A program made the position numbers and the translations under genes. From Alphaproteobacteria bacterium (GTDB lineage: Bacteria; Pseudomonadota; Alphaproteobacteria; UBA9655): DNA of 48,870 nucleotides. Every line of letters starts with the position of its first letter. Positions within the stretch are counted from its first letter, which is position 1. The stretch lies in assembly GCA_019749915.1 (NCBI GenBank), contig JAIEPE010000012.1, positions 1 through 48,870 on the forward strand, read 5' to 3'. This document shows, one piece after another, positions 4,678 to 20,948 of the stretch. Below the pieces are notes generated by a model. The model made no database searches. It was not told the origin of the DNA and was given only the letters and a program-made list of their open reading frames with translations.

Positions 4678-5625
4678 TTAAGCATCCCCTTCATTCTGCA
4701 AAAAGTTGGCCACATCAAGGGCTCCCATACATCCCATCCCCGCTGCCGTCACCGCTTGACGGTAGACTTTATCACGAACATCTCCTGCCGCAAAAATGCC
4801 TTTCACAGAGGTTTCCGTGGATGAAGGAGCCCCAATAATATACCCTTCTTCATCTAGCTTCAACTTTCCACGGAAAATTTTGGTATTCGGCACATGGCCA
4901 ATAGCCACAAAAAAACCATCAATTGGCAAGTCAGACAAATCACCTGAAATTGTGTTTTTCAAACGAACACCTGTCACAGTCAGTGGATCTTCTCGTCCAA
5001 CGATCTCGTCAACTACATGATCCCAAAGAATATGGATTTTTGGATTTTTAAACAGTCGCTCTTGCAACACCTTTTCAGCGCGCAATTGATCGCGGCGATG
5101 AATCAAGGTTACTTTTGAGGCATGATTGGTCATATAAAGGGCTTCTTCAACAGCTGTATTGCCTCCGCCCACAACGGCCACCTCTTTTCCACGGAAGAAA
5201 AAACCATCGCACGTCGCACAACCGGACACCCCAAAACCACGGAATTTGGTTTCACTTTCAATCCCAAGCCATTTGGCTTGCGCCCCCGTACAGATAATAA
5301 TGGTTTCAGCCTTATAAAGAGTCCCACTTTCTCCTCGACAGATAAAGGGACGCTGAGTGGTATTTACCTCCTGAATATGATCTTGAATGATCTTCGTTCC
5401 CACGTGTTCTGCTTGAAGACGCATTTGCTCCATAAGCCACGGCCCTTGGATGACATCCGCAAAGCCAGGATAGTTTTCCACGTCCGTTGTGATCATCAAT
5501 TGCCCCCCTGGCTCCATACCAGAGACAAGAACCGGCTCCAAATTCGCCCTTGCAGCATAAATTGCTGCGGAATAGCCGGCAGGACCACTTCCAATAATGA
5601 GCACTTTTGTATAAATTTCAGACAC
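4678..5625 (-). CDS. trxB: Thioredoxin-disulfide reductase
   Basis: NADPH-dependent flavoenzyme that reduces thioredoxin in the cytoplasm. It has 315 residues, the usual bacterial length. The FAD-binding loop GSGPAG is at residues 12-17, the redox-active CATC is at 136-139, the NADPH-binding GGGNTA is at 153-158, and the late FAD motif FAAGDV is near the end. It starts with a GTG preceded by GAAGGG at a suitable distance. It is the first gene of a minus-strand operon with lysR and an enoyl-CoA hydratase. Its upstream region, from about 19 bases before the start, is duplicated elsewhere in the window (see repeat 5644-5733). Confidence 0.97.
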   Translation of the reverse strand: MSEIYTKVLIIGSGPAGYSAAIYAARANLEPVLVSGMEPGGQLMITTDVENYPGFADVIQGPWLMEQMRLQAEHVGTKIIQDHIQEVNTTQRPFICRGESGTLYKAETIIICTGAQAKWLGIESETKFRGFGVSGCATCDGFFFRGKEVAVVGGGNTAVEEALYMTNHASKVTLIHRRDQLRAEKVLQERLFKNPKIHILWDHVVDEIVGREDPLTVTGVRLKNTISGDLSDLPIDGFFVAIGHVPNTKIFRGKLKLDEEGYIIGAPSSTETSVKGIFAAGDVRDKVYRQAVTAAGMGCMGALDVANFLQNEGDA

Positions 5626-6282: not shown

Positions 6283-8508
6283 ATGAAACGTTATTTAACT
6301 CTTTTAACTCTATCTTTTCTCTCAACCAGCACGCTTGTGAAAGCCGGGAAATTTAATATCCCTGAACTATCTACAATCCCCGAAGAAAGAACAACCATTC
6401 TTCATGCTAAAGCTGACAGGCTACAGAAAAATATTGATAATACGGAAAATGCCGACCTTAAACAGGCCCTTACACAACAGAGGGAAGTTGTTAATACTCT
6501 TTTACACATTCCTTTAACTGAAGCTACTGCGATTAGTGGGCAATATTGGCTTTATGATAGTGCCAAAAAGAAAAAAGATGGGATTAATGCTAGGATTTAT
6601 CCTGCTTTTCTTCATGAAATGCGTCACAGAGACGCTAGGTCGCAATTTGCTAAAATTTACCGCACACTCCGCGCAGAAATTTATGCGCCCGAATCGCAAG
6701 AAGACCGAGATCTTGACGCAGCTATACGGGCTTTTGGAGGGACCTTCGGCGAGGAAGTTAGTAAAGACACACTCAAGGCGGCTGGCCGCTACCTAAAAAT
6801 GCAAAGGTTAATCGCTCCGCACATACAAAAAGCTGACAAAATAATAGACGAGTACATGGCTAATGCCAAGAGAATAACAGCTGATTTCAACAGAATAAAA
6901 GAATCTGGCGATGAAAGAGACCTAAAAATACTCGAACACTGGCTACCCTATAGAAGTGACGAGTGGAGAATTGTGAGACAGGCACTTGGCCGTCTTTCGT
7001 CGATAGGTATTTCGCTGGTACCTGAAAGTGATCCAAATTATCAGTATCCTCCAATGTATCGAGCAGAGTATCGAGAACATCAAATATATGATATTTTAGG
7101 CTATAAAGCGCTAGAAGACAAGCTTGCCCCTATTCTCGCCCCTTACCGTCAGTCAAGACAAGACACTCCTGATTTCATAGCCTCCGTCTTTTCAGGTGCA
7201 AGTGATTATGCAAAACTGGAAGAAGCTCTCGCCTCACGCTATTCTAATATTTATGATGCGCCTCCTGAGGTGCGCGATTTTTTGGGCATTATGAGAAGAA
7301 TCAGGGACCTTCCTTTTCTACTTACGACTCTTAAGAGTTTACAACCAGAAGCTCAAAAAAAATTCTTGGACGATCCAGTACCAGTAGTTTGGACTCACTA
7401 TTCTTCTGCCTATCAAGAGTTTATTCCGACTCCAGGAGAGGTGTCAATGCAAGACGCTCCTGATTTCATAGCCTCCGTCTTTTCGGGAGCAAGTGATTAT
7501 GCAAAATTGGAAGAAGCTCTCGCCTCACGCTATTCTTATTATTATAATGGTATGGATTACGAGGTGCGAGATTTTTTGGGCATTATGAGAGAAATCAGGG
7601 AACTTCCTTTTCTACTGATAAGGCTTAAGGAGTTGCATCGAAAAACTCAAGAATTATTGGACAATCCACCAAGTTTAGGTTTAGCTCCTGCACCTACTTT
7701 GTTAGAAAGCACTCCCAGGTACCATATGGGAAAAGTTAGTCCTTACCCATTAAGTGGATTTTCTGCCCCTGAAGGCGCTCATAGATGGACTGTCGGAAAG
7801 AAAGCTTCAATAACTCTTCCTTTAGCAGAGATGGGCTTCCCCTCCCAAATTTCTTTTTTTGACACTCGTGCTCTTGTAACAGGTAGTCACCCACAAAATC
7901 TAATCGTAAAGGTGAATGGGAATGAAGTTAAACGCTATATTTACACACTCGAAGATAACAATAAAAGAATTGACATCCCTCTGCCTGAAGCTGGCCCAGC
8001 AACAATTGAATTTGAGATGCCAGATGCGGCAAGTCCTTCTGATTTAGGGATTGGTGCTGACAAAAGAGCACTTGGCATATCATTTAGAGAATTCCAAGCA
8101 TATTCCACTCCTAGATTCCATATGGGAAAAGTTAGTCCTTACCCATTAAGTGGATTTTCTGCTCTTGAGAGTTCCCATAGATGGACTGTCGGAAAGAAAG
8201 CTACAATAACTCTTCCTTTAGAAGTGATGGCGCATCGCCCCTCCAGCATTTCTTTCTTGAATACGAAAGGCTTTATAACGGGCAGTCGCCCACAAAATCT
8301 AATCGTGAAGGTAAATGGGGGCATAGTTAAGCACTATGTTTATACACCCGGCAATAATAATCAGACACTTGAAATTCCTTTGCCTAAAGATGGCCCAGCA
8401 ATAATTGAATTTGAGATGCCCGATGCGGCAAGTCCTTCTGATTTAGGGATTGGTGCTGACAAAAGAGAGCTTGGCATATCATTTGGAGAGGTCAAGTTTC
8501 AGTATTAA
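6283..8508 (+). CDS. Large exported modular repeat protein (family member A)
   Basis: 741 residues; no family recognised with certainty. Residues 1-21 form a Sec-type signal peptide (KR, hydrophobic run, cleavage likely after VKA). Residues 25-330 look helical and charged. Two near-identical helical repeats follow, about residues 293-365 and 390-461, each starting with a QD(T/A)PDFIASVFSG block. The carboxy-terminal part is two tandem copies of a module of about 130 residues (about 476-607 and 608-741) marked by HRWTVG, LPL, VKVNG, IPLP and a closing LGISF; predicted beta-rich. Signal peptide and helical region closely resemble the member at 43445. Likely secreted or surface-located. The module resembles, from memory, a beta-sandwich attached to alphaproteobacterial glycosyltransferases, so glycan binding is possible but unproven. 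Confidence 0.8.
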   Translation: MKRYLTLLTLSFLSTSTLVKAGKFNIPELSTIPEERTTILHAKADRLQKNIDNTENADLKQALTQQREVVNTLLHIPLTEATAISGQYWLYDSAKKKKDGINARIYPAFLHEMRHRDARSQFAKIYRTLRAEIYAPESQEDRDLDAAIRAFGGTFGEEVSKDTLKAAGRYLKMQRLIAPHIQKADKIIDEYMANAKRITADFNRIKESGDERDLKILEHWLPYRSDEWRIVRQALGRLSSIGISLVPESDPNYQYPPMYRAEYREHQIYDILGYKALEDKLAPILAPYRQSRQDTPDFIASVFSGASDYAKLEEALASRYSNIYDAPPEVRDFLGIMRRIRDLPFLLTTLKSLQPEAQKKFLDDPVPVVWTHYSSAYQEFIPTPGEVSMQDAPDFIASVFSGASDYAKLEEALASRYSYYYNGMDYEVRDFLGIMREIRELPFLLIRLKELHRKTQELLDNPPSLGLAPAPTLLESTPRYHMGKVSPYPLSGFSAPEGAHRWTVGKKASITLPLAEMGFPSQISFFDTRALVTGSHPQNLIVKVNGNEVKRYIYTLEDNNKRIDIPLPEAGPATIEFEMPDAASPSDLGIGADKRALGISFREFQAYSTPRFHMGKVSPYPLSGFSALESSHRWTVGKKATITLPLEVMAHRPSSISFLNTKGFITGSRPQNLIVKVNGGIVKHYVYTPGNNNQTLEIPLPKDGPAIIEFEMPDAASPSDLGIGADKRELGISFGEVKFQY
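7159..7376 (+). repeat. Internal tandem repeat 1 in exported protein A
   Basis: Nearly identical over its first 85 bases to the segment starting at 7450 and more diverged afterwards. It encodes the block DFIASVFSGASDYAKLEEAL and then a helical FLGIM segment. The high DNA identity indicates recent duplication or conversion. Confidence 0.85.
7450..7664 (+). repeat. Internal tandem repeat 2 in exported protein A
   Basis: Second copy of the unit beginning at 7159, offset by about 291 bases and in frame. A single, more diverged version occurs in the paralogue at 43445 (about 44270-44350), so copy number varies between family members. Confidence 0.85.
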
Positions 8509-8697
8509 GCTTCTTTTGTTTCCATGGATCCTTATCGTCCTAAGGGCTCCTCAAGATCCTTTCCTTATAGTTGACGTCCCGCGGCCCAAACCGCGGGATC
8601 ACCCCATCTTTCCGTATCCCTGGACTCCGCCTATCAAGCAGCGGGGCGTCAATGGTATGTATATTTGTCATGTAAGGACCTTAACCCTAGCGAAAGG
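8506..8697 (+). repeat. 3'-flank repeat, copy 1 (after exported protein A)
   Basis: About 190 bases from the stop codon onward match 13087-13273 at roughly 90% identity by eye, including the palindromic element inside. The downstream flanks of members A and C are therefore duplicates, although their amino-terminal halves are unrelated. Confidence 0.85.
8571..8652. repeat. Palindromic intergenic element, family 1, copy 1
   Basis: An 82-base imperfect palindrome. The ends TTGACGTCCCGC and GCGGGGCGTCAA are complementary at 11 of 12 positions, and an inner perfect 7-bp hairpin CCCGCGG/CCGCGGG lies at 8578-8597. Related copies are at 13152-13232 and 41205-41281. It resembles the dispersed palindromic repeats common in Rickettsiales-like genomes, and may also stop transcription of the gene before it. 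Confidence 0.8.
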
Positions 8698-8701
8698 TAT
8701 A

Positions 8702-8840
8702 ACTGAATAAAAAAATCTTGTTTTTCTGAATTATTAATTTTTTAACTTACATAGTGTTGCATATAATATTAACTTGAATTTAACAATTAATATTGTATAA
8801 TTAAGAAGTAGAGATTTTTATTTATAAAAACATTGAAATA
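8702..8840 (+). repeat. Dispersed AT-rich repeat, copy 2 (5' flank of second paralogue)
   Basis: Counterpart of 5730-5866, sharing TTTTTCTGAATTATTA and AATATTGTATAATTAA blocks. The whole spacer 8509-8997 (489 bases) between the first two paralogues contains only this repeat, the 3'-flank repeat and the palindrome; no gene is seen. Confidence 0.75.
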
Positions 8841-8997
8841 CGCTTTAATGTATTGTATGGGTAATATGTAAACCAATATAGAAACAGCTACAAAAGGTGA
8901 AGATGTATGCTAAGGTGAGTTTTTAGTTCTTATCTCTCATTTCTGCAGAGAGTTCTAAATTAGAAGGTTTTAAGTTATTTGGTAATGGAGTTGAGTT

Positions 8998-10950
8998 ATG
9001 AAAAAACAGAGAAAAAAGTTACAGTTAATGACGGCTTTAATGTTAGGAACAACCGTATTTCTCCCTGCGAAAAAGGCCTTGGGGATGATAGGAAACACCG
9101 AGGAGGATGCAAGAAGCATAGGAACCACAACATACAAGGCAACAGCGGCTAAACAAGTACTTGCTGGAGATATATTTGTTAATTCTACACTATCTTTAGA
9201 TGCAAAGGTTGTTTTAAGGCATCTCAATGGTTTACCTGTTATAAAGGACATGCTTGCGGACTCTTTACAGGCTCTTTATGTGGGAGGCATTGGTAAAGTG
9301 ATGGCTCATGACAGTACCTTTAAACCCGATCTTTCGAACGAAGAATTAAAGGCGCTAATCAAACAAGGACTTCAGAAGATAAGTTCAGCTCAAGACGATC
9401 CTTTTGATAGCGTAGTGACAAAACAAGTTTATACAAGCTGGGGCCAGAATGATAGAAAAGCTGAACTTGATAGCATAATGGGTGATAAATCTGCGATACA
9501 AAGGATATTTGCAGAAAAGTTATCCCATGTCATGGAAGAAACTCCCAATATATTAAACAGCTTTTTAGCTCATCTTCCGCAATCAGAAGCAGAAAAGGAA
9601 GCTCAGAATTTATGTACTGAAAAATTTGCGCATTACTTTACTGCTCTGAATGTTGTGGACGGTTGGACTCCTACAGCTCCTACTCTAAGCTACAAACAAA
9701 AACAGTTGCTAGCCAATCCTCACGTGGAGTACGAGTTACAGCTTAAGGAAGCAGCAAAAGTATATAGTACACTTTTGCAGAGAGAAAAAAAATTGCTAAC
9801 ATCTAGGCCTTCTCCTGAGAGTGAGACCGTTTCTGCACCATCATCATATACTCGTCCGGAATCTCAATTTCCTGGACAATCAGGCATGCTTGAAGAGTTG
9901 AGTGGGGCTTTAGCAAAAAGAAGACAAGCTCCGCAGATCACTGGATCTTCATCACCATCCTTGAGGAGTACAAGCACAACTCCTGTTGCACAGGCTTCAG
10001 CTCCTACTTCTTCACTTAGTCCTGTCAAAACTCTTTCTACTTCCCTTCAAGAGCGAGACATTGTTACGAGCAGCCCCACGAGTAGCAGCAGCTCAATGCC
10101 ATCGACAAAACCTGCAACTCTAGTTCCTGCTGATGAGCCTGCTTTATTAGAAAATACTCCCAGGTACCATATGGGAAAAATTAGTCCTTACCCATTAAGT
10201 GGATTTTCTGCCCCTGAAGGCGCTCATAGATGGACTGTCGGAAAGAAAGCTACAATAACTCTTCCTTTAGCAGAGATGGGCTTTCCCTCCCAAATTTCTT
10301 TTTTTGACACTCGTGCTCTTGTAACAGGTAGTCACCCACAACATTTAATTGTAAAGGTGAATGGGGAGGGAGCTGGTAGTTATGATTATACACTTACCAA
10401 TAATAATCAGACAATTGAAATTCCTCTGCCTGAGGCTGGCTCTGCAGAAATTGAATTTGAGATGCCCAATGCGGCAAGTCCTTCTGATTTAGGGATTAGT
10501 GCTGACACAAGAGCACTTGGCATATCATTTAGAGAGTTCCAAGCATATTCCACTCCCAGGTACCATATGGGAAAAGTTAGTCCTTACCCATTAAGTGGAT
10601 TTTCTACTCTTGAGAGTTCCCATAGATGGACTGTCGGAAAGAAAGCTACAATAACTCTTCCTTTAGAAGTGATGGCACATCGCCCCTCCCGCATTTCTTT
10701 CTTGAATACGAAAGGCTTTGTAACGGGCAGTCACCCACAAAATCTAACCGTAAAGGTGAATGGGAAGGAAGCAGGTCGCTATATTTATACACCCGGCAAT
10801 AATAATCATACACTTGAGATCCCTCTGCCTAAAGATGGCCCAGCAACAATTGAATTTGAAATCCCCTATGCGATAAGTCCTTCTGCATTAGGGATTAATG
10901 CTGATCAAAGAGAACTTGGCATATCATTTGGAGAGGTCGAGCTTCAATAA
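8998..10950 (+). CDS. Large exported modular repeat protein (family member B)
   Basis: 650 residues. The first 29 residues form a signal peptide (KKQRKK, then a hydrophobic run ending near KALG). Residues 30-270 look helical and do not obviously resemble the amino-terminal regions of the other members. Residues 270-385 are a Ser/Thr/Pro-rich low-complexity linker. Two tandem copies of the shared module of about 130 residues follow (about 387-517 and 518-650), with HRWTVG, TLPL, VKVNG, IPLP and LGISF motifs. At DNA level the first copy is almost identical to the first copy in member A. It is preceded by a repeat shared with member A and followed by a hairpin. The layout suggests an exported adhesin-like or effector protein; the function is unknown. 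Confidence 0.8.
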   Translation: MKKQRKKLQLMTALMLGTTVFLPAKKALGMIGNTEEDARSIGTTTYKATAAKQVLAGDIFVNSTLSLDAKVVLRHLNGLPVIKDMLADSLQALYVGGIGKVMAHDSTFKPDLSNEELKALIKQGLQKISSAQDDPFDSVVTKQVYTSWGQNDRKAELDSIMGDKSAIQRIFAEKLSHVMEETPNILNSFLAHLPQSEAEKEAQNLCTEKFAHYFTALNVVDGWTPTAPTLSYKQKQLLANPHVEYELQLKEAAKVYSTLLQREKKLLTSRPSPESETVSAPSSYTRPESQFPGQSGMLEELSGALAKRRQAPQITGSSSPSLRSTSTTPVAQASAPTSSLSPVKTLSTSLQERDIVTSSPTSSSSSMPSTKPATLVPADEPALLENTPRYHMGKISPYPLSGFSAPEGAHRWTVGKKATITLPLAEMGFPSQISFFDTRALVTGSHPQHLIVKVNGEGAGSYDYTLTNNNQTIEIPLPEAGSAEIEFEMPNAASPSDLGISADTRALGISFREFQAYSTPRYHMGKVSPYPLSGFSTLESSHRWTVGKKATITLPLEVMAHRPSRISFLNTKGFVTGSHPQNLTVKVNGKEAGRYIYTPGNNNHTLEIPLPKDGPATIEFEIPYAISPSALGINADQRELGISFGEVELQ

Positions 10951-10998
10951 CTTCAATATTGAGAGATAAAAGACCCCATCACAAGTAGTGAAATATTG

Positions 10999-11042
10999 AG
11001 AAGAGCTTCAGCTAGCCGTTAATTCATAGCTGGGGCTCTTCT
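10999..11042 (+). terminator. Strong stem-loop after exported protein B
   Basis: AGAAGAGCTTCAGCTA (10999-11014) can pair with TAGCTGGGGCTCTTCT (11027-11042) along 16 positions, with two G-U wobbles and a 12-base loop. Only a weak pyrimidine-rich stretch follows, so termination is likely but may be Rho-dependent or inefficient. Confidence 0.55.
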
Positions 11043-11170
11043 TATACCTCGTACTACTGCCTTAAAACGATAAAAGAATCTGCTATATGCAGAATCAGTC
11101 GAACGTTAAAAAGCCACTTTTAAGTTGGGCACCTAGAACTTCCTTTTTTTGTCCTTACGTTGTCAATCTT

Positions 11171-11224
11171 CGCAAAGGCAGGGATCCGGGGAATATCTGG
11201 ATTCCCGTGTTCCCCGCCTTTGCG
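11171..11224. repeat. Palindromic intergenic element, family 2
   Basis: Imperfect palindrome of 54 bases with outer arms CGCAAAGGC and GCCTTTGCG and inner GGGGAA/TTCCCC blocks. It is typical of dispersed intergenic palindromes, with a spaced ATCTGGAT centre. It lies in the 477-base spacer 10951-11427, which otherwise holds a hairpin and the repeat at 11261. Confidence 0.75.
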
Positions 11225-11260
11225 AGGACGAGAATGATACACGGGGTTTTTTTAGAGGTG

Positions 11261-11352
11261 CCTTAAAAATTTCTTCTACCCCTATTGTGCAAAAGTTCTC
11301 TAAGATTACCAGGGAAAAATACGCCTTATGACGATAACAAGAGATACGATCT
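11261..11352 (+). repeat. Dispersed repeat, copy 2 (5' flank of third paralogue)
   Basis: Counterpart of 5644-5733, the region upstream of trxB, at roughly 85% identity. It ends about 75 bases before the start of exported protein C. Confidence 0.85.
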
Positions 11353-11427
11353 ATTTATCTAATAAAAATAGTTGAAATTAATTTTAAATATATTATATCA
11401 ATAATGCATCAAATATAGGAGATTGAC

Positions 11428-13089
11428 ATGAATATATCAAAGAAGTTGAAATTAAGCCTCTTAGCAACGAGCATACTGTTCTTTCCTAAAGCAGGGCATA
11501 CCATGATGACCCCTGAGGATAAAACGTCTTCAGCGGGACCATCTATACAAGCACATACACCTGACCAAGAACGTCCAGTTTTCAATAGCCTACTACCAGT
11601 GGGTCTTTCAAATCAAGTTCCAACCCCCTCTACTGATTATAGAGCAGGTTCAAATCGGATGAAACAGCTTTTTGGCCAAGCTTTTATACCAAATGAAAGA
11701 ATCAACCAACAGTTAACTTTACTTGGGTCTACAAGTCCAGAAAATTTTCAAGAGATAACAGAGGCTATTCGTACACAACTTGTAGAAAAATTTACTACTT
11801 CTAACACGTATTCATCTAGATCATCGACAGCTATTGACCCTGTTCTTCTAGCTTCTCTACAAGATGTTGTTTCCTTTGCACTGACTCTTTCCAAAGAAGA
11901 AATAGAGCAGCGTTCAAAAGGGATGATCCGTACAATAGTTGACTTAAATAACGCTTTCCCTTCCTTCCAACACACTGTGTTGCCGTCATTCCTTTGTCCT
12001 CAGACAGAGGAAGAAGTAGATCGATCTTATAATGTGCAACTTTCCGAACTGCTTAGAAGAACTCCTAATTTGCTTTGTTTTTTTAAAGATCTCTTGAAAC
12101 TTGATCCCCGTCAAATAACATACCGTACCGAGGTAATTAAGAAGAGTGCTGGCTCTTTACTGCCAAATAGGCCGTACACTTACATAAAGGAGTGGGAAGA
12201 AAAAGCTTTCTCCATAATGGAATTCTTGTTGAAGCTTAAAACTCAAGATATTATTGACCGTGCAGAGTCTATGAAAAAGTTGATGTCCTTTTCTTCTACA
12301 CGCGATTACGAATTTTACACCCCAGTAAAACAAGCAGCAGCGCTTTTAGGTACCTCTACATTGATGGAAAGAGCGGATGAATTTCTTAACCTTTTAAATG
12401 CATCACCTGCGTTAGAGCTAATAGCTAATAAGCTGTCTTATCTTGCAGTAGAACTTAATCCAGTGGATTTTAGGCACTACGTTGCTTCTCAAAACTCACA
12501 GACTCTCTTGATTAACTTGCATCATAGCTACTCTTGCCTAGACCCGCTTACGTTTATTGAACAGATTAAATCGGAACTTGCTGTAGCTGCCCCCTCGAGT
12601 AGTAGTAGTGCCCCTACAAGCAGCAGCAGTTCAATTCCATCGGTACAGCCTGCAAATCCTGCTGATGAGCTTGCTTTGCAAGCAAGCGCTACCAAGTTCC
12701 AGATGGGAGAACCTAATTCCTACCAAACAACTGGATTTTCTGCCTTTGAGGGGTCACATAGATGGACTGTAGGAAATAAAGCTTCAATAACACTTCCTTT
12801 AGCAGAAATGAAGCCTCGCCCCTCCAGCATTTCTTTTTTGAATACGAAAGGCCTTATAACTCCTACTCACTCACAAACGCTAACCGTAAAGGTGAATCGG
12901 AAGTTAGGGAATAGGTATGTTTATACACCCGGCAATAATAATCATACACTTGAGATCCCTCTGCCTAAAGATGGCCCAGTAGTAATTCAATTTGAAATCT
13001 CAAATGCGGCAAGTCCTTCTGCATTAGGGATTAATGCTGACAAAAGAGAGCTTGGCATATCATTTGGAGAGGTCCAGTTTCAGTATTGA
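11428..13089 (+). CDS. Large exported modular repeat protein (family member C)
   Basis: 553 residues. Residues 1-26 form a signal peptide (MNISKKLKL, hydrophobic run, KAGHT). Residues 30-390 look helical with many short charged segments and are not obviously related to members A, B or D. A Ser-rich linker written mainly in AGT/AGC codons spans about residues 390-415. One copy of the shared module of about 130 residues ends the protein (about 421-553), with HRWTVG, TLPL, VKVN, IPLP and LGISF. AGGAG lies 5-6 bases before the ATG. The 5' flank is shared with trxB and the 3' flank with member A. Probably exported; the function is unknown. Confidence 0.8.
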   Translation: MNISKKLKLSLLATSILFFPKAGHTMMTPEDKTSSAGPSIQAHTPDQERPVFNSLLPVGLSNQVPTPSTDYRAGSNRMKQLFGQAFIPNERINQQLTLLGSTSPENFQEITEAIRTQLVEKFTTSNTYSSRSSTAIDPVLLASLQDVVSFALTLSKEEIEQRSKGMIRTIVDLNNAFPSFQHTVLPSFLCPQTEEEVDRSYNVQLSELLRRTPNLLCFFKDLLKLDPRQITYRTEVIKKSAGSLLPNRPYTYIKEWEEKAFSIMEFLLKLKTQDIIDRAESMKKLMSFSSTRDYEFYTPVKQAAALLGTSTLMERADEFLNLLNASPALELIANKLSYLAVELNPVDFRHYVASQNSQTLLINLHHSYSCLDPLTFIEQIKSELAVAAPSSSSSAPTSSSSSIPSVQPANPADELALQASATKFQMGEPNSYQTTGFSAFEGSHRWTVGNKASITLPLAEMKPRPSSISFLNTKGLITPTHSQTLTVKVNRKLGNRYVYTPGNNNHTLEIPLPKDGPVVIQFEISNAASPSALGINADKRELGISFGEVQFQY

Positions 13090-13679: not shown

Positions 13680-15392
13680 ATGACTTTAAACGGCATTTTA
13701 CAAATTGCTCTCTTATTTACAACCCTTCTTTTTCTCATCAAGCCCGTTGGGATTTACCTTTATCGTGTCTATGAAACCCCTAGCCTCTTTCCTCTTTTTA
13801 ATCGTCTAGAAGGCAAGCTTTTAAATTGGTGTTGCTTTAAACCCGAACAACAGAACTGGAAAGCCTACCTTAAATCACTTTTGATTTTTAACATCATGGG
13901 AGTTGCCATTCTTTTTTGTATTCAGCGTCTTCAGCCCTTCCTTCCCTTAAATCCTGAGAATTTTCAAGCAGTGCCATGGGCCTTGGCTTTAAATACAGCC
14001 GTCAGCTTTGTCACCAACACCAATTGGCAAGCCTATAGTAGTGAACCTACCATGAGTTATTTTACACAGATGGTCGGCCTCACTTGGCAAAACTTTGTGT
14101 CTGCAGGAACGGGTATGGCCGCTTTTTTGGCTTTTTCTCGGGGGCTCAGTCGCCACTCAACTTCATCTCAGGATATCCTTTTAGGAAATTTTTGGGTGGA
14201 CCTTTTGCGGTCTGTTTTCTATGTGTTTTTGCCTGGAGCTTTCATTATAGCTCTTTTATTTATTTCCCAAGGCGTGATTCAAAATTTTTCACCAACTCTT
14301 GAGATTACAACTCTTGAAGGAGGCCGTGAACTTATTTCCATGGGACCTGTTGCCTCCCAAGAGGCCATCAAAGTCTTAGGAACCAATGGGGGAGGTTTTT
14401 TTGGAGCAAACTCAGCCCATCCCTTTGAAAATCCAACGCCCTTCACTAACTTTCTTCAGATGCTCTCTATGATCTTAATCCCGGGAGCTTTGACCTATAC
14501 CTATGGAAAAATGATCCAGAGTCAAAAGCAAGGCTGGTCCATTTTCATCGCCATGGTAATTCTCTCCTTAATGGGAATTCTAGCCATCTATTATTTTGAA
14601 TCCCAGCTCAACCCTCTACTTCACGGGTTGGATCTAGATCAAACTCCTGGCAATCTTGAAGGGAAGGAAGTTCGTTTTGGTATCTTAGGGTCGGCCCTTT
14701 TTGCCAACCTAACAACCGACACCTCTTGTGGAGCCACAAATTGCCTTCATGACAGTTTTACGCCTTTAGGTGGACTTATTCTTCTTTTGAATATCCTCAT
14801 CGGTGAGATCGTCTTTGGTGGCGTGGGTGTGGGGTTATTCAACATGCTCCTTTTTATTATCATTAGCGTATTCATGGCAGGTCTGATGGTTGGCCGAACT
14901 CCTGAATATTTAGGAAAAAAAATTGAAGGTAAGGAAGTGCGTTTCGCCATTCTCTCTATTGCACTCTACCCTTTAATTATCTTGGTAGGCGCTGCTATAT
15001 CGGTTTTATCGCCTTCAGCCCTTGGCTCTCTTCATAATGGAGGCCCTCATGGTTTCAGCGAAATCCTTTATGCCTATACAAGCGCCACTCACAATAATGG
15101 CTCCGCCTTTGATGGTCTTGATGCAAACACCTCTTGGTATAATCTCTCCTTGGCCCTGGCGATGTTTGTAGGGCGTTTTTTTCCTATCTACTTAGGACTT
15201 TCCATCGCAGGTTTAATGGTTAACAAAAAAATTATCCAGCCCAGCGCCGGCACCTTTCCAACACAAGGTGCTCTTTTCATTTGGCTTCTGATAGGCGTTA
15301 TCTTAATTGTAGGGGCATTAACTTTTTTCCCCGTACTGGCCATCGGCCCTTTCATCGAATATATCGACCTATGGCAGGGGAGGTCCTTTTAA
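13680..15392 (+). CDS. kdpA: Potassium-transporting ATPase subunit A (KdpA)
   Basis: Potassium-binding, channel-like subunit of the high-affinity KdpFABC pump in the inner membrane. 570 residues, close to the 557 of E. coli, with about ten hydrophobic spans. Conserved filter regions are visible: TNTNWQAY near residue 112, GTNGGGFFGANSAHPFENP near 234, TTDTSCGATNC near 350 and HNNGSAFDGL near 472. GGAAGGGGATAAGGA before the ATG gives a good ribosome binding site. Its stop shares one base with the kdpB start (TAATG), a sign of coupled translation. Confidence 0.97.
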   Translation: MTLNGILQIALLFTTLLFLIKPVGIYLYRVYETPSLFPLFNRLEGKLLNWCCFKPEQQNWKAYLKSLLIFNIMGVAILFCIQRLQPFLPLNPENFQAVPWALALNTAVSFVTNTNWQAYSSEPTMSYFTQMVGLTWQNFVSAGTGMAAFLAFSRGLSRHSTSSQDILLGNFWVDLLRSVFYVFLPGAFIIALLFISQGVIQNFSPTLEITTLEGGRELISMGPVASQEAIKVLGTNGGGFFGANSAHPFENPTPFTNFLQMLSMILIPGALTYTYGKMIQSQKQGWSIFIAMVILSLMGILAIYYFESQLNPLLHGLDLDQTPGNLEGKEVRFGILGSALFANLTTDTSCGATNCLHDSFTPLGGLILLLNILIGEIVFGGVGVGLFNMLLFIIISVFMAGLMVGRTPEYLGKKIEGKEVRFAILSIALYPLIILVGAAISVLSPSALGSLHNGGPHGFSEILYAYTSATHNNGSAFDGLDANTSWYNLSLALAMFVGRFFPIYLGLSIAGLMVNKKIIQPSAGTFPTQGALFIWLLIGVILIVGALTFFPVLAIGPFIEYIDLWQGRSF

Positions 15393-17422: not shown

Positions 17423-17977
17423 ATGAAAAAAGACCTTCTCATTGCTTTCTCTGTTTCTCTCATCACCCTATTTTTTACGGGCGTGGTCTATCCCTTTCTT
17501 ATAACCCAAATCGGAGGCTCCTTGTTTCCTTATAAGACTTCTGGAAGCCTTATCAAAGATGAGCAGGGCGGAGTCATTGGCTCGGAGCTCCTCAGACAGA
17601 ATTTCAAAAATCCAGCCTACTTTTTTCCACGCCCTTCAGCAGAAGAGACTAATTTAGCTCCCACCTCAAAACTATTGATCACTCGCATTCAAGCGAGAAT
17701 TGCCGAGATTAAAAAGATCAATACAAACCCCATTCCCATCGATTTAGTTACAAGTTCTGCCAGCGGGCTTGATCCCCATATTTCTAAGGAAGCTGCGCTG
17801 TGGCAGGCTCCCCAGATTGCTCTTCACCGTAACGTAAATCTTAAACATATCACGGCCTTAATTGAACGCCTGAGGGAAAGCCCTCAATTTTATGTTTTAG
17901 GGGAAAGTCGCCTCAATGTTCTAAAGTTAAATTTAGCTCTAGATGTTTCTTTTGGTGTCCCTGTGGGGGGTTTATGA
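17423..17977 (+). CDS. kdpC: Potassium-transporting ATPase subunit C (KdpC)
   Basis: Single-span accessory subunit that anchors the complex and raises the ATP affinity of KdpB. 184 residues with one amino-terminal transmembrane helix (about 6-30) and a periplasmic domain carrying the family blocks NFKNPAYFFPRPSA and SASGLDPHIS. It begins directly after the kdpB stop, and its own stop overlaps the start of the kdpD-like gene by four bases. All four pump subunits are intact, so a working pump is likely. Confidence 0.95.
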   Translation: MKKDLLIAFSVSLITLFFTGVVYPFLITQIGGSLFPYKTSGSLIKDEQGGVIGSELLRQNFKNPAYFFPRPSAEETNLAPTSKLLITRIQARIAEIKKINTNPIPIDLVTSSASGLDPHISKEAALWQAPQIALHRNVNLKHITALIERLRESPQFYVLGESRLNVLKLNLALDVSFGVPVGGL

Positions 17978-19131
17978 AAAAAAATTTACAGCCCCCTCAA
18001 GATTTTCTAACTCTCCTTCAAAAAGCCAATCGCGGCCGATTAAAGGTCTATACAGGACCCGTTGCGGGTGTAGGCAAGACTTACCGCATGTTAGAAGAGG
18101 CTCATTCTTTGCAAGCTCAAGGCGCAGATGTTGTTTTGGCCTTCATTGAAACCCATGGACGGAAAAAACTTCAGGAACTCTTGAAAGGGCTCGAAGTCAT
18201 CCCGCGTAAAAAATACGAATACAAAGGCGTTACCGTTGAAGAAATGGATGTGGATGCAGTACTCAAGCGCAAACCCCAAATTGCTATTGTGGATGAAGCA
18301 GCTCATACGAATACCCCTCTTTGCCGAAATACAAAAAGATATCAGGATATTCTCGAACTTTTAAATGCAGGAATCAACGTCATCTGTGCCTTTAATATAC
18401 AACATTTAGAAAGCCTGAGTGATATCGTTAAAAAATTTACGAACGTTACGATTTATGAAACCATTCCTGACAGTTTTCTCAAACATGCTGATCAAGTCAT
18501 TAACGTTGACCTTGGCGTCGAGGATATTATTGATCGCCTTCAGTCAGGGCAAATTTATGGATCAGAAAAAATATCTCTTGCTCTTGAACATTTCTTTAAG
18601 CAAGAAAATCTTATCAAATTGAGAGAACTTGCTTTACGAGAAGTTGCTGAATCCATTGAACAAACGAACTATTTACCAAGAAATGTATCTCTGAAGGAGG
18701 CAATTTTTGCCAGCCACCAAATCATGGTCTGTTTTTTGCCGGAAAGATGGAGTCAGCGCACTCTCCTAAAGAAAGCCTCCCGTCTGGCAGGGCGCCTAAG
18801 CAAAGAATGGTTTGTCGTCTATACAGAAACGGAAGAAGATAGCCCCGAGAAAATTGATCTTGAAAAACAGCGCCATCTTTTTTCTGACATTCAGTTTGCA
18901 AAGGATTTAGGAGCTCATATTATTCATTTCAAGACGGAAAACCGCGTCAATGCTTGGCTCGAATTTGCTGAGAAAGAATCCATTACCCAACTTATTATTG
19001 GCCGCCCAAAGGAAAGTTGGTGGCGTGAAGCCCTTGGTTTAGATACCCTCAATTCTCTTCTCAAACAATCGAAAGATCTTGATATCTTTATTATGGGTTA
19101 CAATAAGAACGAAATTGAGAGCGACACTTGA
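17974..19131 (+). CDS. kdpD: Truncated KdpD: sensor and USP domains without kinase
   Basis: 385 residues matching only the cytoplasmic front half of KdpD. Walker A GPVAGVGKT is at 28-36, a Walker B-like VDEAAHTN is at 106-113, and NIQHLESL at 141-148 matches the KdpD family block. A universal-stress-protein-like domain covers about residues 245-375, where c-di-AMP binds in some KdpD proteins. The four transmembrane helices and the histidine kinase domain of full-length KdpD (about 890 residues in E. coli) are missing. The end overlaps the next gene, a separate membrane histidine kinase, by four bases. I recall similar short KdpD plus kinase pairs in Bacteroidetes. It probably modulates the neighbouring kinase. 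Confidence 0.9.
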   Translation: MKKNLQPPQDFLTLLQKANRGRLKVYTGPVAGVGKTYRMLEEAHSLQAQGADVVLAFIETHGRKKLQELLKGLEVIPRKKYEYKGVTVEEMDVDAVLKRKPQIAIVDEAAHTNTPLCRNTKRYQDILELLNAGINVICAFNIQHLESLSDIVKKFTNVTIYETIPDSFLKHADQVINVDLGVEDIIDRLQSGQIYGSEKISLALEHFFKQENLIKLRELALREVAESIEQTNYLPRNVSLKEAIFASHQIMVCFLPERWSQRTLLKKASRLAGRLSKEWFVVYTETEEDSPEKIDLEKQRHLFSDIQFAKDLGAHIIHFKTENRVNAWLEFAEKESITQLIIGRPKESWWREALGLDTLNSLLKQSKDLDIFIMGYNKNEIESDT

Positions 19132-20948
19132 TGAAAATAAGAACACAACTCTTTTTCGCCCAACTTCCCACCCTTTTAATCATAGGATTCATCACCTGGT
19201 TTTTCATTTTTTTCATGTTAGCCTTAAGAGATAAGGCTGATATTATTCTCGTTCAAAACTTTAAAACCATCTCCTCTATGAATGATATTCATAAATACCT
19301 TGAAGAACTCAATGAACTTTATATCAAAAATCCCCAATTTATTTCAAAGGAACCAAAGAAATTTAATAGTCTAAAGTCAAAGATTGACCAACAACTTTTT
19401 ATTCAGGACAAAAATATAAAAAATGATGAGGAAAAGAAGCTAACAAAAAAGTTAGAAGAAAGTTGGAAAATATACCAAATTCAGGTTTCATCTCCTTCTA
19501 ATAACTTACTTTCAGGTGAACAGAAAAAATACCAAGAGGTCAAAGAGACCATCGATGCCATCAACACCTTAAACCTAGAGGGTCTAAGCCAAACAAAAGA
19601 AAACTTTACTTTATTTATCTCTTATTTTGTTATCTTTATCCTGGGCGCGGCCACCGTTAGCTTACTATTTGGACTTTATCTTTCCTGGTTTTTCTCAGGT
19701 TTATTTTTAAAACCTCTCTCGACCATGAGAGATACAATGCGTCAAATGGGGACAGAAGAAAAAACAATCTTTTTAAATCTAAAAGGCTCGGAAGAAATTG
19801 AAAAACTCTCTAATGAATTTAACCTTATGTCAATTCGACTCCAGGGCTTTCAGAAAGATTCTTTGCAAAAAGCGATTGAAAGCTATGAAACTATAAAAGA
19901 TGCCCTTGATTCTTGGCCGGAACCTATCCTCATTTTAAATCAAATTTCCAATTTTACCTGTATCAACAAAGCTGCTCATAAAATTCTGAAACTTTCCCAA
20001 GATCATAACAAGATTCCTTCTCTCTTCCACGTTAAAGCAGATTGGAAAACACCTCTCCTTAATATCTGCAATACGGTTCTTACAACCAAGGATCGGTATC
20101 ATCCTGATAAAGAAAAGGATGTGCTCTCCCTTATCGTTGAAAATAAGAAAGCTTTTTATCTTCCCTGGGCTTTCCCCATCAAAAAATCCGGTGCTGATTA
20201 TCCAAGTTCTTTGGAAGGAGTCTTCATTATCTTGCAAGATCTTCTCCACAAACCCCTCTCTTCAGCAACCAAGGTTGATGCCTATGAAAGGATTGCCCAC
20301 AACTTTCAAACACCTCTCAATGACGTGCGCATGGCGATTCATCTTTGCTCTGAAGGAACGGTAGGTCCTTTAACAGATAAGCAACAAGAAATTCTCATTT
20401 CTGCCCGAGAAAAATGCGATCAGCTTGCAAAGCTCACTCAAAGTTTACTTAGCCTTTCTACTCATGTGAAAAAAGAACTCCCTTCTGTTCAGAACGTGGA
20501 TTTAAGTTCACTCCTTTCAAGTCTTGTTAAAAGTGCAAAACTTGAAGCAGATAAAAAAAATACCTCAATCCTTTTTGAAACTCCACCATACCTCGCCCCC
20601 TTAAAGGTCAATAAAGAAGAGGTAGAAACGATCCTTAGAAATCTTCTTCAGAATGCTGTTTACTATGCCACCCCAGGTTCGGAAATAAAAGTTCTACTTC
20701 AAGAAATCGAGAATAAATCTATTGAATTTAGCGTTACCAACCACGGACCTCTCATTCCTCCTGAATACCGTAAAGATATCTTTAAAAAGAATTTTAAAGT
20801 CCCTGGACAATCCAAGAAACGAGCTGGCTTGGGTCTATACATTGCTAAAAAGAGTGTGCAGGGGATGAAGGGGAGAATTGGCTTTCGAAATGCAGGAAAG
20901 AATGGTACAGTTTTTTGGGTGAAGTTTCCTCTTTCTCCCACAACTTAA
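19128..20948 (+). CDS. Membrane sensor histidine kinase, partner of the short KdpD
   Basis: 606 residues. A first membrane helix (about 11-33), a periplasmic helical segment (34-160) and a second helix (162-190) are followed by a HAMP-like linker (190-245), a PAS-like domain (250-375), a dimerisation/phosphoacceptor domain with H391 in AHNFQTPL, and an ATPase domain with the N box near N509 and GLGLYIAK at 567-574. The acidic residue normally next to the histidine is Asn here, and the usual DxGxG box reads NHGPL, so activity may be altered. It ends the kdp operon and overlaps kdpD by four bases. No response regulator is encoded nearby; the target regulator is unknown. Confidence 0.88.
   Translation: MMKIRTQLFFAQLPTLLIIGFITWFFIFFMLALRDKADIILVQNFKTISSMNDIHKYLEELNELYIKNPQFISKEPKKFNSLKSKIDQQLFIQDKNIKNDEEKKLTKKLEESWKIYQIQVSSPSNNLLSGEQKKYQEVKETIDAINTLNLEGLSQTKENFTLFISYFVIFILGAATVSLLFGLYLSWFFSGLFLKPLSTMRDTMRQMGTEEKTIFLNLKGSEEIEKLSNEFNLMSIRLQGFQKDSLQKAIESYETIKDALDSWPEPILILNQISNFTCINKAAHKILKLSQDHNKIPSLFHVKADWKTPLLNICNTVLTTKDRYHPDKEKDVLSLIVENKKAFYLPWAFPIKKSGADYPSSLEGVFIILQDLLHKPLSSATKVDAYERIAHNFQTPLNDVRMAIHLCSEGTVGPLTDKQQEILISAREKCDQLAKLTQSLLSLSTHVKKELPSVQNVDLSSLLSSLVKSAKLEADKKNTSILFETPPYLAPLKVNKEEVETILRNLLQNAVYYATPGSEIKVLLQEIENKSIEFSVTNHGPLIPPEYRKDIFKKNFKVPGQSKKRAGLGLYIAKKSVQGMKGRIGFRNAGKNGTVFWVKFPLSPTT

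Follow-up and report, generated by a model that had tools for sequence, protein, structure and literature searches.

Four genes in contig JAIEPE010000012.1 of an alphaproteobacterium (assembly GCA_019749915.1, GTDB lineage UBA9655) encode putatively exported proteins, here P0001 to P0004, in which a variable front is joined to one or two copies of a common C-terminal module, the tail. The contig was analysed over its whole length of 48,870 nt, which is referred to as the window, and it is the entire contig C61 of the source genome G000 (2.08 Mb in 73 contigs, 97.3% complete). Judged from the genome itself, the placement in Alphaproteobacteria rests on DUF4167 and the Tad genes. Sister species of the same genus carry related fronts that end in tails of other kinds, and this change of tail between sister species, rather than the four-gene family of the window, is the real novelty of our findings. 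Within the source genome, tails have been copied between genes with unrelated fronts.

Results

Related fronts carry different tails in sister species

Fifteen genomes of the genus were compared, including G000; some are incomplete, with G001, G010 and G011 at 63-83%. The dominant tails are designated the G000 module (a branch of DUF7024, see below), Mhel in G006, Mfrt in G007, and M4 in G010 and G013. The P0001 front recurs in G006 with an Mhel tail, at 58% identity over 465 columns and 59% over 483 columns (58-62% range), and in G010 with an M4 tail, at 50% over 372 columns. The P0002 front is 53% identical to that of a G007 protein with an Mfrt tail and 28-29% identical to that of a G006 protein with Mhel; the paralogue C37b shares 42% identity with a G010 protein that ends in M4. 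The P0003 front is found at 41% identity in G006, ahead of Mhel tails, and an OTU-like front encoded elsewhere in G000 is 56% identical in G006 (Mhel) and 44% identical in G007 (Mfrt). Similarity stopped ahead of the tail in all ten pairs when whole proteins were compared.

Clustering of the fronts gave the same pattern. From 71 tail-bearing frames of seven sources, the 66 with at least 60 residues outside the modules were kept and five were dropped. Six of the resulting clusters span at least two species, and in five of these six the kind of C-terminal tail depends on the species. Clustering was by chaining, so that two of the clusters join more than one front. The C-terminal tails of these proteins are thus modular and have been exchanged. 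Gene order can be followed as well: the P0001 orthologue of G006 adjoins the same trxB (94.9% identical) and lysR (96.7%), and the kdpA of G006 (93.5% identical) adjoins a gene with three helical tails. Our literature search found nothing describing such a system and no mention of DUF7024.

The lipA gene is 98.3% identical between G000 and G010, and a tail-bearing gene lies upstream of it in both (window 42301-44851; L147, contig C105 in G010). The two lipA-adjacent tail genes differ in their fronts and are opposite in relative orientation.

Dominant tails are amplified species by species

In five of the species one kind of tail predominates and is amplified. Mhel, a helical-looking domain of about 72 residues, has 22 copies in G006, two in G007, and one each in G004 and G000. 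Mfrt has 28 copies in G007 (several partial), five in G006 (partial), and two each in G000 and G003. The beta-rich M4 has 27 copies in G013 (25-36% identical), seven in G010 and one in G003. None of the three was found in the remaining genomes of the 15. The profile of the G000 module was also run on 58 other genomes, 14 of them of the same genus, and had a single match, in G001 (E 9.1e-10), on a protein that looks sulfatase-like by eye. The Pfam profile of DUF7024 (PF22895) found five further copies in G001 within three open reading frames (ORFs), one of which encodes an OTU-like protein with two DUF7024 domains at its end; the other 13 genomes of the genus gave no match. The module is nearly private to the source species.

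Profile comparisons of four pairs of tail-family alignments (A3/A13, A3/A11, A11/A13 and A3/A10) gave no homology, with probabilities of 2% or less; the alignments are shallow. One of five M4 proteins scanned had sub-threshold matches to CBM_4_9 (E 3.5e-4) and to a surface glycan-binding domain (E 3.5e-5). The rare Mfrt copies of G000 and G003 sit near the N-terminus, and the single Mhel copy of G000 lies inside a P0003-type protein of contig C68. These non-tail positions suggest that a resident domain was recruited and then spread.

End domains of other kinds are carried by G003, G004 and G001. In G003 (L067) a further kind of tail is present as two copies of about 62 residues (alignment A12), and G004 (L059) has another; the fronts that carry these two kinds are OTU-like and sulfotransferase-like. 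In a named genome collection, two contigs (L044 and L045; JALEGO) of a metagenome-assembled genome labelled Flavobacteriales carry the G000 module. They are probably misbinned, since their genes match the genus of G000, with an Hsp33-type gene on one of them 90% identical to that of G006.

The module family of the source genome

A preliminary description, made from the letters of the window, had proposed a four-member family of exported proteins with six module copies and had viewed the shared C-terminal part as a targeting or binding module. The four genes are intact and their ORFs are open throughout. The six copies were confirmed (2 + 2 + 1 + 1, about 132 residues each, pairwise identity 57-86%). 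In size, the proposed family fell well short of the 25 proteins and 31 module copies encoded by the genome. The plan of a variable front and a shared C-terminal module is strongly supported by these 25 proteins with their many fronts, and by the fronts that carry different tails across species.

A profile of the six window copies had 32 matches in G000, of which 31 are strong and one is diverged. The strong matches (E 6.2e-78 to 7.8e-51, which excludes chance as their source) lie in 25 proteins on nine contigs. The diverged copy (E 1.7e-10) is on an FkbM-type methyltransferase of C70, a tenth contig. Each protein has one to three modules, usually preceded by a Ser-rich linker, and in 22 of the 25 the module is the protein end; the other three carry 267, 77 and 11 residues beyond it. 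Identity between the window copies and the remaining 25 is 54-87%. Invariant residues are kept across all 31 copies, and the ratio of nonsynonymous to synonymous divergence (dN/dS) between copies is 0.37-0.58.

Leaders were judged with a crude hydropathy test. All four window proteins have signal-peptide-like leaders, in agreement with the preliminary description, and three of the four pass; the P0001 leader scores 1.47, just under the threshold of 1.6, and is nearly identical to that of P0004. Over the family, 21 of 25 proteins pass, and a protein of C66 joins P0001 just under the threshold. The outright failures are two broken copies, C69e, in which signal peptide and front are in different frames, and C60a, in which the front piece is displaced and lies elsewhere upstream. 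These two are the only genes of the 25 that look broken, so the set does not consist of decaying copies, and no single family of Pfam, NCBIfam or PHROGs covers the proteins.

The fronts had been called mostly unrelated or partly related. P0001 and P0004 have homologous fronts (40.6% over 325 columns, E 3e-57), and those of P0002 and P0003 had no significant similarity to other window fronts in a comparison among the four proteins. Within the P0001 front, a stretch of about 100 aa is repeated. Ser-rich linkers occur, as described, in P0002, P0003 and P0004, with none in P0001. Relatives of the window fronts are encoded elsewhere in G000, those of P0001 and P0004 on C66, those of P0002 on C60 and C37, and those of P0003 on C68. 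A palindromic intergenic repeat of the CCCCGCG...CGCGGGG type occurs at window positions 44940-44957 and downstream of tail genes on C37 and C66.

Tails have been copied between genes of one genome

The two-module tail of P0001 is 99.1% identical at the DNA level, over 807 nt, to that of C69b, an OTU-like gene on contig C69 with an unrelated front. The common stretch begins just before the module and ends with the gene; beyond the stop codon the two loci no longer match. Synonymous divergence (dS) of the shared tail is 0.022. For trxB, kdpA and lysR between G000 and G006 it is 0.36-0.50, and the copying is therefore younger than the split of these two genomes. Within a single genome, genes whose fronts are unrelated have acquired copies of one tail, and the break falls at the module or just ahead of it.

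The module tree points the same way. In it, P0001, P0002 and two OTU-like genes have two-module tails that group with support of 100/99 and 98/97. Mapping of front labels onto the tree required 17 changes, which lies between the minimum of 9 and the shuffled mean of 22.2; the tails thus follow front or locus in part, and in part have been exchanged. A single origin was rejected by clade tests for the tails of F1-type, F2-type and OTU-like fronts, a rejection made easier by the two tandem copies, which form separate clades.

The module is a diverged branch of DUF7024

By its profile matches the module is no unknown family but a diverged branch of Pfam DUF7024 (gathering cut-off 24.4 bits). Among the window copies, the one of P0004 matches below the cut-off at 16.1 bits, and those of P0001 to P0003 were not listed in the Pfam scan. 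Paralogues in the source genome exceed it: L039 (50.9 bits), C70 (30.4), L036:14321 (29.3), L036:7063 (27.7) and L042 (25.8). The matches cover nearly the full length of the 145-position profile, from 15 to 142 in P0004 and from 20-29 to 140-144 in the others.

An AlphaFold model of the first P0001 copy, built from ten sequences, has a predicted local distance difference test score (pLDDT) of 94.4 and consists of ten strands with no helix. It predicts with confidence an all-beta jelly-roll fold of the carbohydrate-binding-module (CBM) kind. In a Foldseek comparison with solved structures, jelly rolls were the best matches (E 3.5e-5 and weaker, TM-scores of about 0.4-0.6), and a structure aligner gave Z-scores of 10.4 for the front domain of a CE2 esterase, 9.7 for CBM29 and 9.6 for CBM35. 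A search for solved sequence relatives of the module returned two unrelated matches (E 0.39 and 0.71). E. coli has a DUF7024 protein above the cut-off, which we take to be the C-terminus of OpgB/MdoB (phosphoglycerol transferase I), and the C70 copy weakly matches residues 644-759 of the MdoB model (13.8 bits). A sulfatase-type catalytic domain ahead of the module, a trait of OpgB/MdoB, was not found in P0001 to P0004 by Pfam and NCBIfam scans.

The fronts evolve fast and offer leads to their activities

In eight comparisons, made between species or against the contigs of the Flavobacteriales-labelled metagenome-assembled genome, front dN/dS ranged from 0.46 to 1.30: P0001 1.30, P0003 0.85, C37a 0.84 and 0.72, C37b 0.72, the OTU-like front 0.56, P0002 0.55 and C71c 0.46. 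Three core genes gave 0.08, 0.07 and 0.03. The fronts thus evolve fast, and we do not claim positive selection as proven. Synonymous divergence of the P0001 front is lower than that of the core genes, and recombination may therefore be involved there.

Several fronts encoded outside the window have motifs that serve as leads. On C69 (L034 4052-14518), tandem genes encode a DGTC block that recalls OTU proteases, together with a second common domain. Relatives occur in G001, G003, G006 and G007, and a different OTU-like front is present in G001 and G013. In a profile search of the PDB, the C69 front matched only through a 31-residue DGxC block, to two viral polymerase-protein chains (E 0.03). 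Contig C71 has six tandem genes, five of them with fronts whose HVGxxKTxT and R...S motifs, invariant in alignment A17, we presume to be sulfotransferase-like; a full-length structure model of this type of protein had a mean pLDDT of 37.4 and was unusable. The C63 protein (L039 3685-6642) is a candidate actin-binding protein of 986 aa, apparently exported, Pro/Ser-rich and with three tail modules. It has a WH2-like motif near its C-terminus after a poly-proline run, at 13.2 bits against a cut-off of 23.1 (E 0.077). The OTU-like, sulfotransferase-like and WH2-like readings are offered as leads from motif similarity.

Features of the window

Coordinates of the tail-bearing genes and of two neighbouring genes are given in Table 1. 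At 17974-20948, KdpD is apparently split into a 385-aa sensor-domain protein and a separate 606-aa HisKA/HATPase protein. A Phd/VapB-like antitoxin ORF (31707-31946) lies beside a toxin that looks PIN-type by eye and is split over two frames (31290-31439 and 31417-31704).

Table 1. Tail-bearing genes, their modules and synteny anchors in the window
Feature	Position	Strand	Make-up or basis
P0001, 741 aa	6283..8508	+	Predicted signal peptide, F1-type helical front, no Ser linker, two tail modules
P0001 tail module copy 1 (DUF7024 branch)	7711..8106	+	Profile/alignment; copy modelled with AlphaFold
P0001 tail module copy 2	8107..8505	+	Profile/alignment
P0002, 650 aa	8998..10950	+	Predicted signal peptide, F2-type front, Ser/Thr/Pro-rich linker, two tail modules
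P0002 tail module copy 1	10156..10551	+	Profile/alignment
P0002 tail module copy 2	10552..10947	+	Profile/alignment
P0003, 553 aa	11428..13089	+	Predicted signal peptide, F3-type front, Ser-rich linker, one tail module
P0003 tail module	12688..13086	+	Profile/alignment
P0004, 468 aa	43445..44851	+	Predicted signal peptide, F1-type front, Ser-rich linker, one tail module; adjoins lipA
P0004 tail module	44444..44848	+	Window copy matching DUF7024, E 0.011, below cut-off
trxB, thioredoxin-reductase type	4678..5625	-	Pfam Pyr_redox_2; synteny anchor of P0001
kdpA	13680..15392	+	Pfam KdpA; synteny anchor on the other side of the three-gene island

Discussion

We regard it as an even chance that these genes make up an exported modular arsenal with fast-evolving fronts and an exchangeable, probably glycan-binding C-terminal address module. 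As a more specific and tentative proposal, the arsenal would be shared between species, and each species would have spread one resident domain over most of it by tail conversion, re-addressing the entire set in one go to a species-specific ligand, such as its own changed surface glycan or a new host. Judged as a whole, the preliminary description is partly borne out: its modular plan stands, with the two corrections that the module is a branch of a known Pfam family and that the main novelty lies in the change of tail rather than in the four genes.

The proposed sequence of events begins with export by the Sec-type leader, as predicted from the protein N-termini, and would continue with passage of the outer membrane, for which type II secretion was considered, secretins being present in all 15 genomes. 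The tail would then hold the protein at one glycan-like ligand common to the set, as suggested by its fold, by its repetition in up to three copies and by its occurrence on many fronts that are unrelated. We lean towards the bacterium's own envelope glycan as this ligand, with the fronts held and displayed at the surface, because DUF7024 otherwise occurs on envelope-glycan enzymes (the FkbM methyltransferase copy and the E. coli DUF7024 protein). The front would act as the working part, perhaps on a eukaryotic host; the OTU-like, WH2-like and sulfotransferase-like motifs and the speed of front evolution make host action a lead. Host interaction, as put forward in the preliminary description, would fit the fast evolution and the eukaryote-type motifs of some fronts. 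On a change of ligand, recombination at the module or ahead of it would carry a new tail across the set; such spread is observed, and a change of ligand is its presumed cause.

A number of results weigh against the proposed address module and host-directed fronts. The two secretins of G000 are the CpaC of a Tad pilus and an orphan, and do not prove export beyond the periplasm. Besides CBMs, the structures matched by the fold include receptor-binding domains of clostridial binary toxins, MAM domains, reelin and proteases; the fold alone is therefore no proof of glycan binding, and no Pfam CBM family matched the module in scans of the DUF7024-type copies. The G006 tail looks helical and shows nothing that would point to glycan binding. 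Three of the 25 proteins have sequence past the module, and nine or ten of the 15 genomes lack any of the four amplified tails in quantity, which confines the pattern to five species. As for the fronts, the bootstrap interval of the P0001 dN/dS (0.95-1.81) includes 1. Pfam OTU (PF02338) had no match in G000 at E up to 10, and the C71-type fronts have no Pfam sulfotransferase match; their best PDB matches are designed TIM barrels, with no sulfotransferase among them.

The main rival is that the tail is a lectin-like address for a glycan or protein on the surface or an organelle of the host, and that tails change with the host. The CBM-like fold is common to receptor-binding domains of secreted toxins, the rapid change and eukaryote-type motifs of the fronts suit such a role, and one ligand per species could as well be a host ligand. 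We nevertheless consider it rather unlikely, given that DUF7024 is found elsewhere on envelope-glycan enzymes and that neither secretin of G000 identifies an export route to a host. It is improbable that the tail is a secretion or sorting signal for a species-specific export machine, comparable to type IX C-terminal domains or the Bartonella BID. Its C-terminal position in most of the proteins and its occurrence on unrelated fronts would fit; however, up to three copies occur in a protein, two proteins have 267 and 77 residues after the last module, and Sec-type leaders, or sequences close to them, are already present at the N-terminus of every intact copy. At least three unrelated tail folds on the same fronts in close sisters would need as many machines, and Pfam and NCBIfam scans gave no match to a type IX sorting domain or to BID. 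Least probable, and in our view very doubtful, is a neutral process in which, species by species, gene conversion homogenises the last third of a repeat-rich family and the tail serves no common function. Conversion within the genome is strong and repeats lie at contig ends and in intergenic regions, as this would predict, but the invariant residues and between-copy dN/dS place the module under constraint, it has spread over nine contigs onto unrelated fronts, and unrelated folds occupy the same position in different species.

Comparison with known systems

Shared binding modules on exported proteins and the reassortment of effectors are already known. In Gram-positive bacteria, choline-binding, SLH, GW and CWB2 proteins place one surface-binding C-terminal module on many unrelated exported fronts. 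The G000 family resembles them in sharing a C-terminal module across unrelated exported fronts in one genome, and differs in that it is Gram-negative, has an unrelated fold, and changes its module type between sisters on the same fronts. In type III effectors, terminal reassortment likewise joins one terminus to many partners by recombination; there the shared part is an N-terminal secretion signal, whereas here the front stays and the C-terminal module is swapped, and within a species many genes show the swap in the same sense. Bartonella effectors, in which the C-terminal BID domain is a type IV secretion signal, are also alphaproteobacterial, with varied fronts and a shared C-terminal domain, but the proteins described here have a Sec-type leader and no BID match. 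Polymorphic toxins (Rhs and contact-dependent inhibition systems) have a constant N-terminus and a variable C-terminal toxin with an immunity gene, a polarity that is reversed here (immunity genes were not searched for).

OpgB of E. coli shares a homologous module with the predicted jelly-roll fold. DUF7024 there ends single envelope-glycan enzymes, in contrast to the 31 copies on varied exported proteins of G000, which are replaced in other species. The jelly-roll CBMs (CBM29, CBM35, CBM6 and CBM22) are alike in fold, and differ in that identity is about 7-13% and no CBM family matches.

Implications

It is unusual for several sister species to have the same fronts with unrelated amplified tails, and two or more of these species are very near to the source (core proteins 93-98% identical). 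They amount to a natural experiment in which one front can be compared under three or four tails. Should the tails be address labels, a comparison of their ligands across species would show what forced the change, whether a surface polysaccharide or the host, and DUF7024 would gain a function. The search for a single C-terminal module amplified in a genome may also provide a route to the secreted arsenals of uncultured symbionts.

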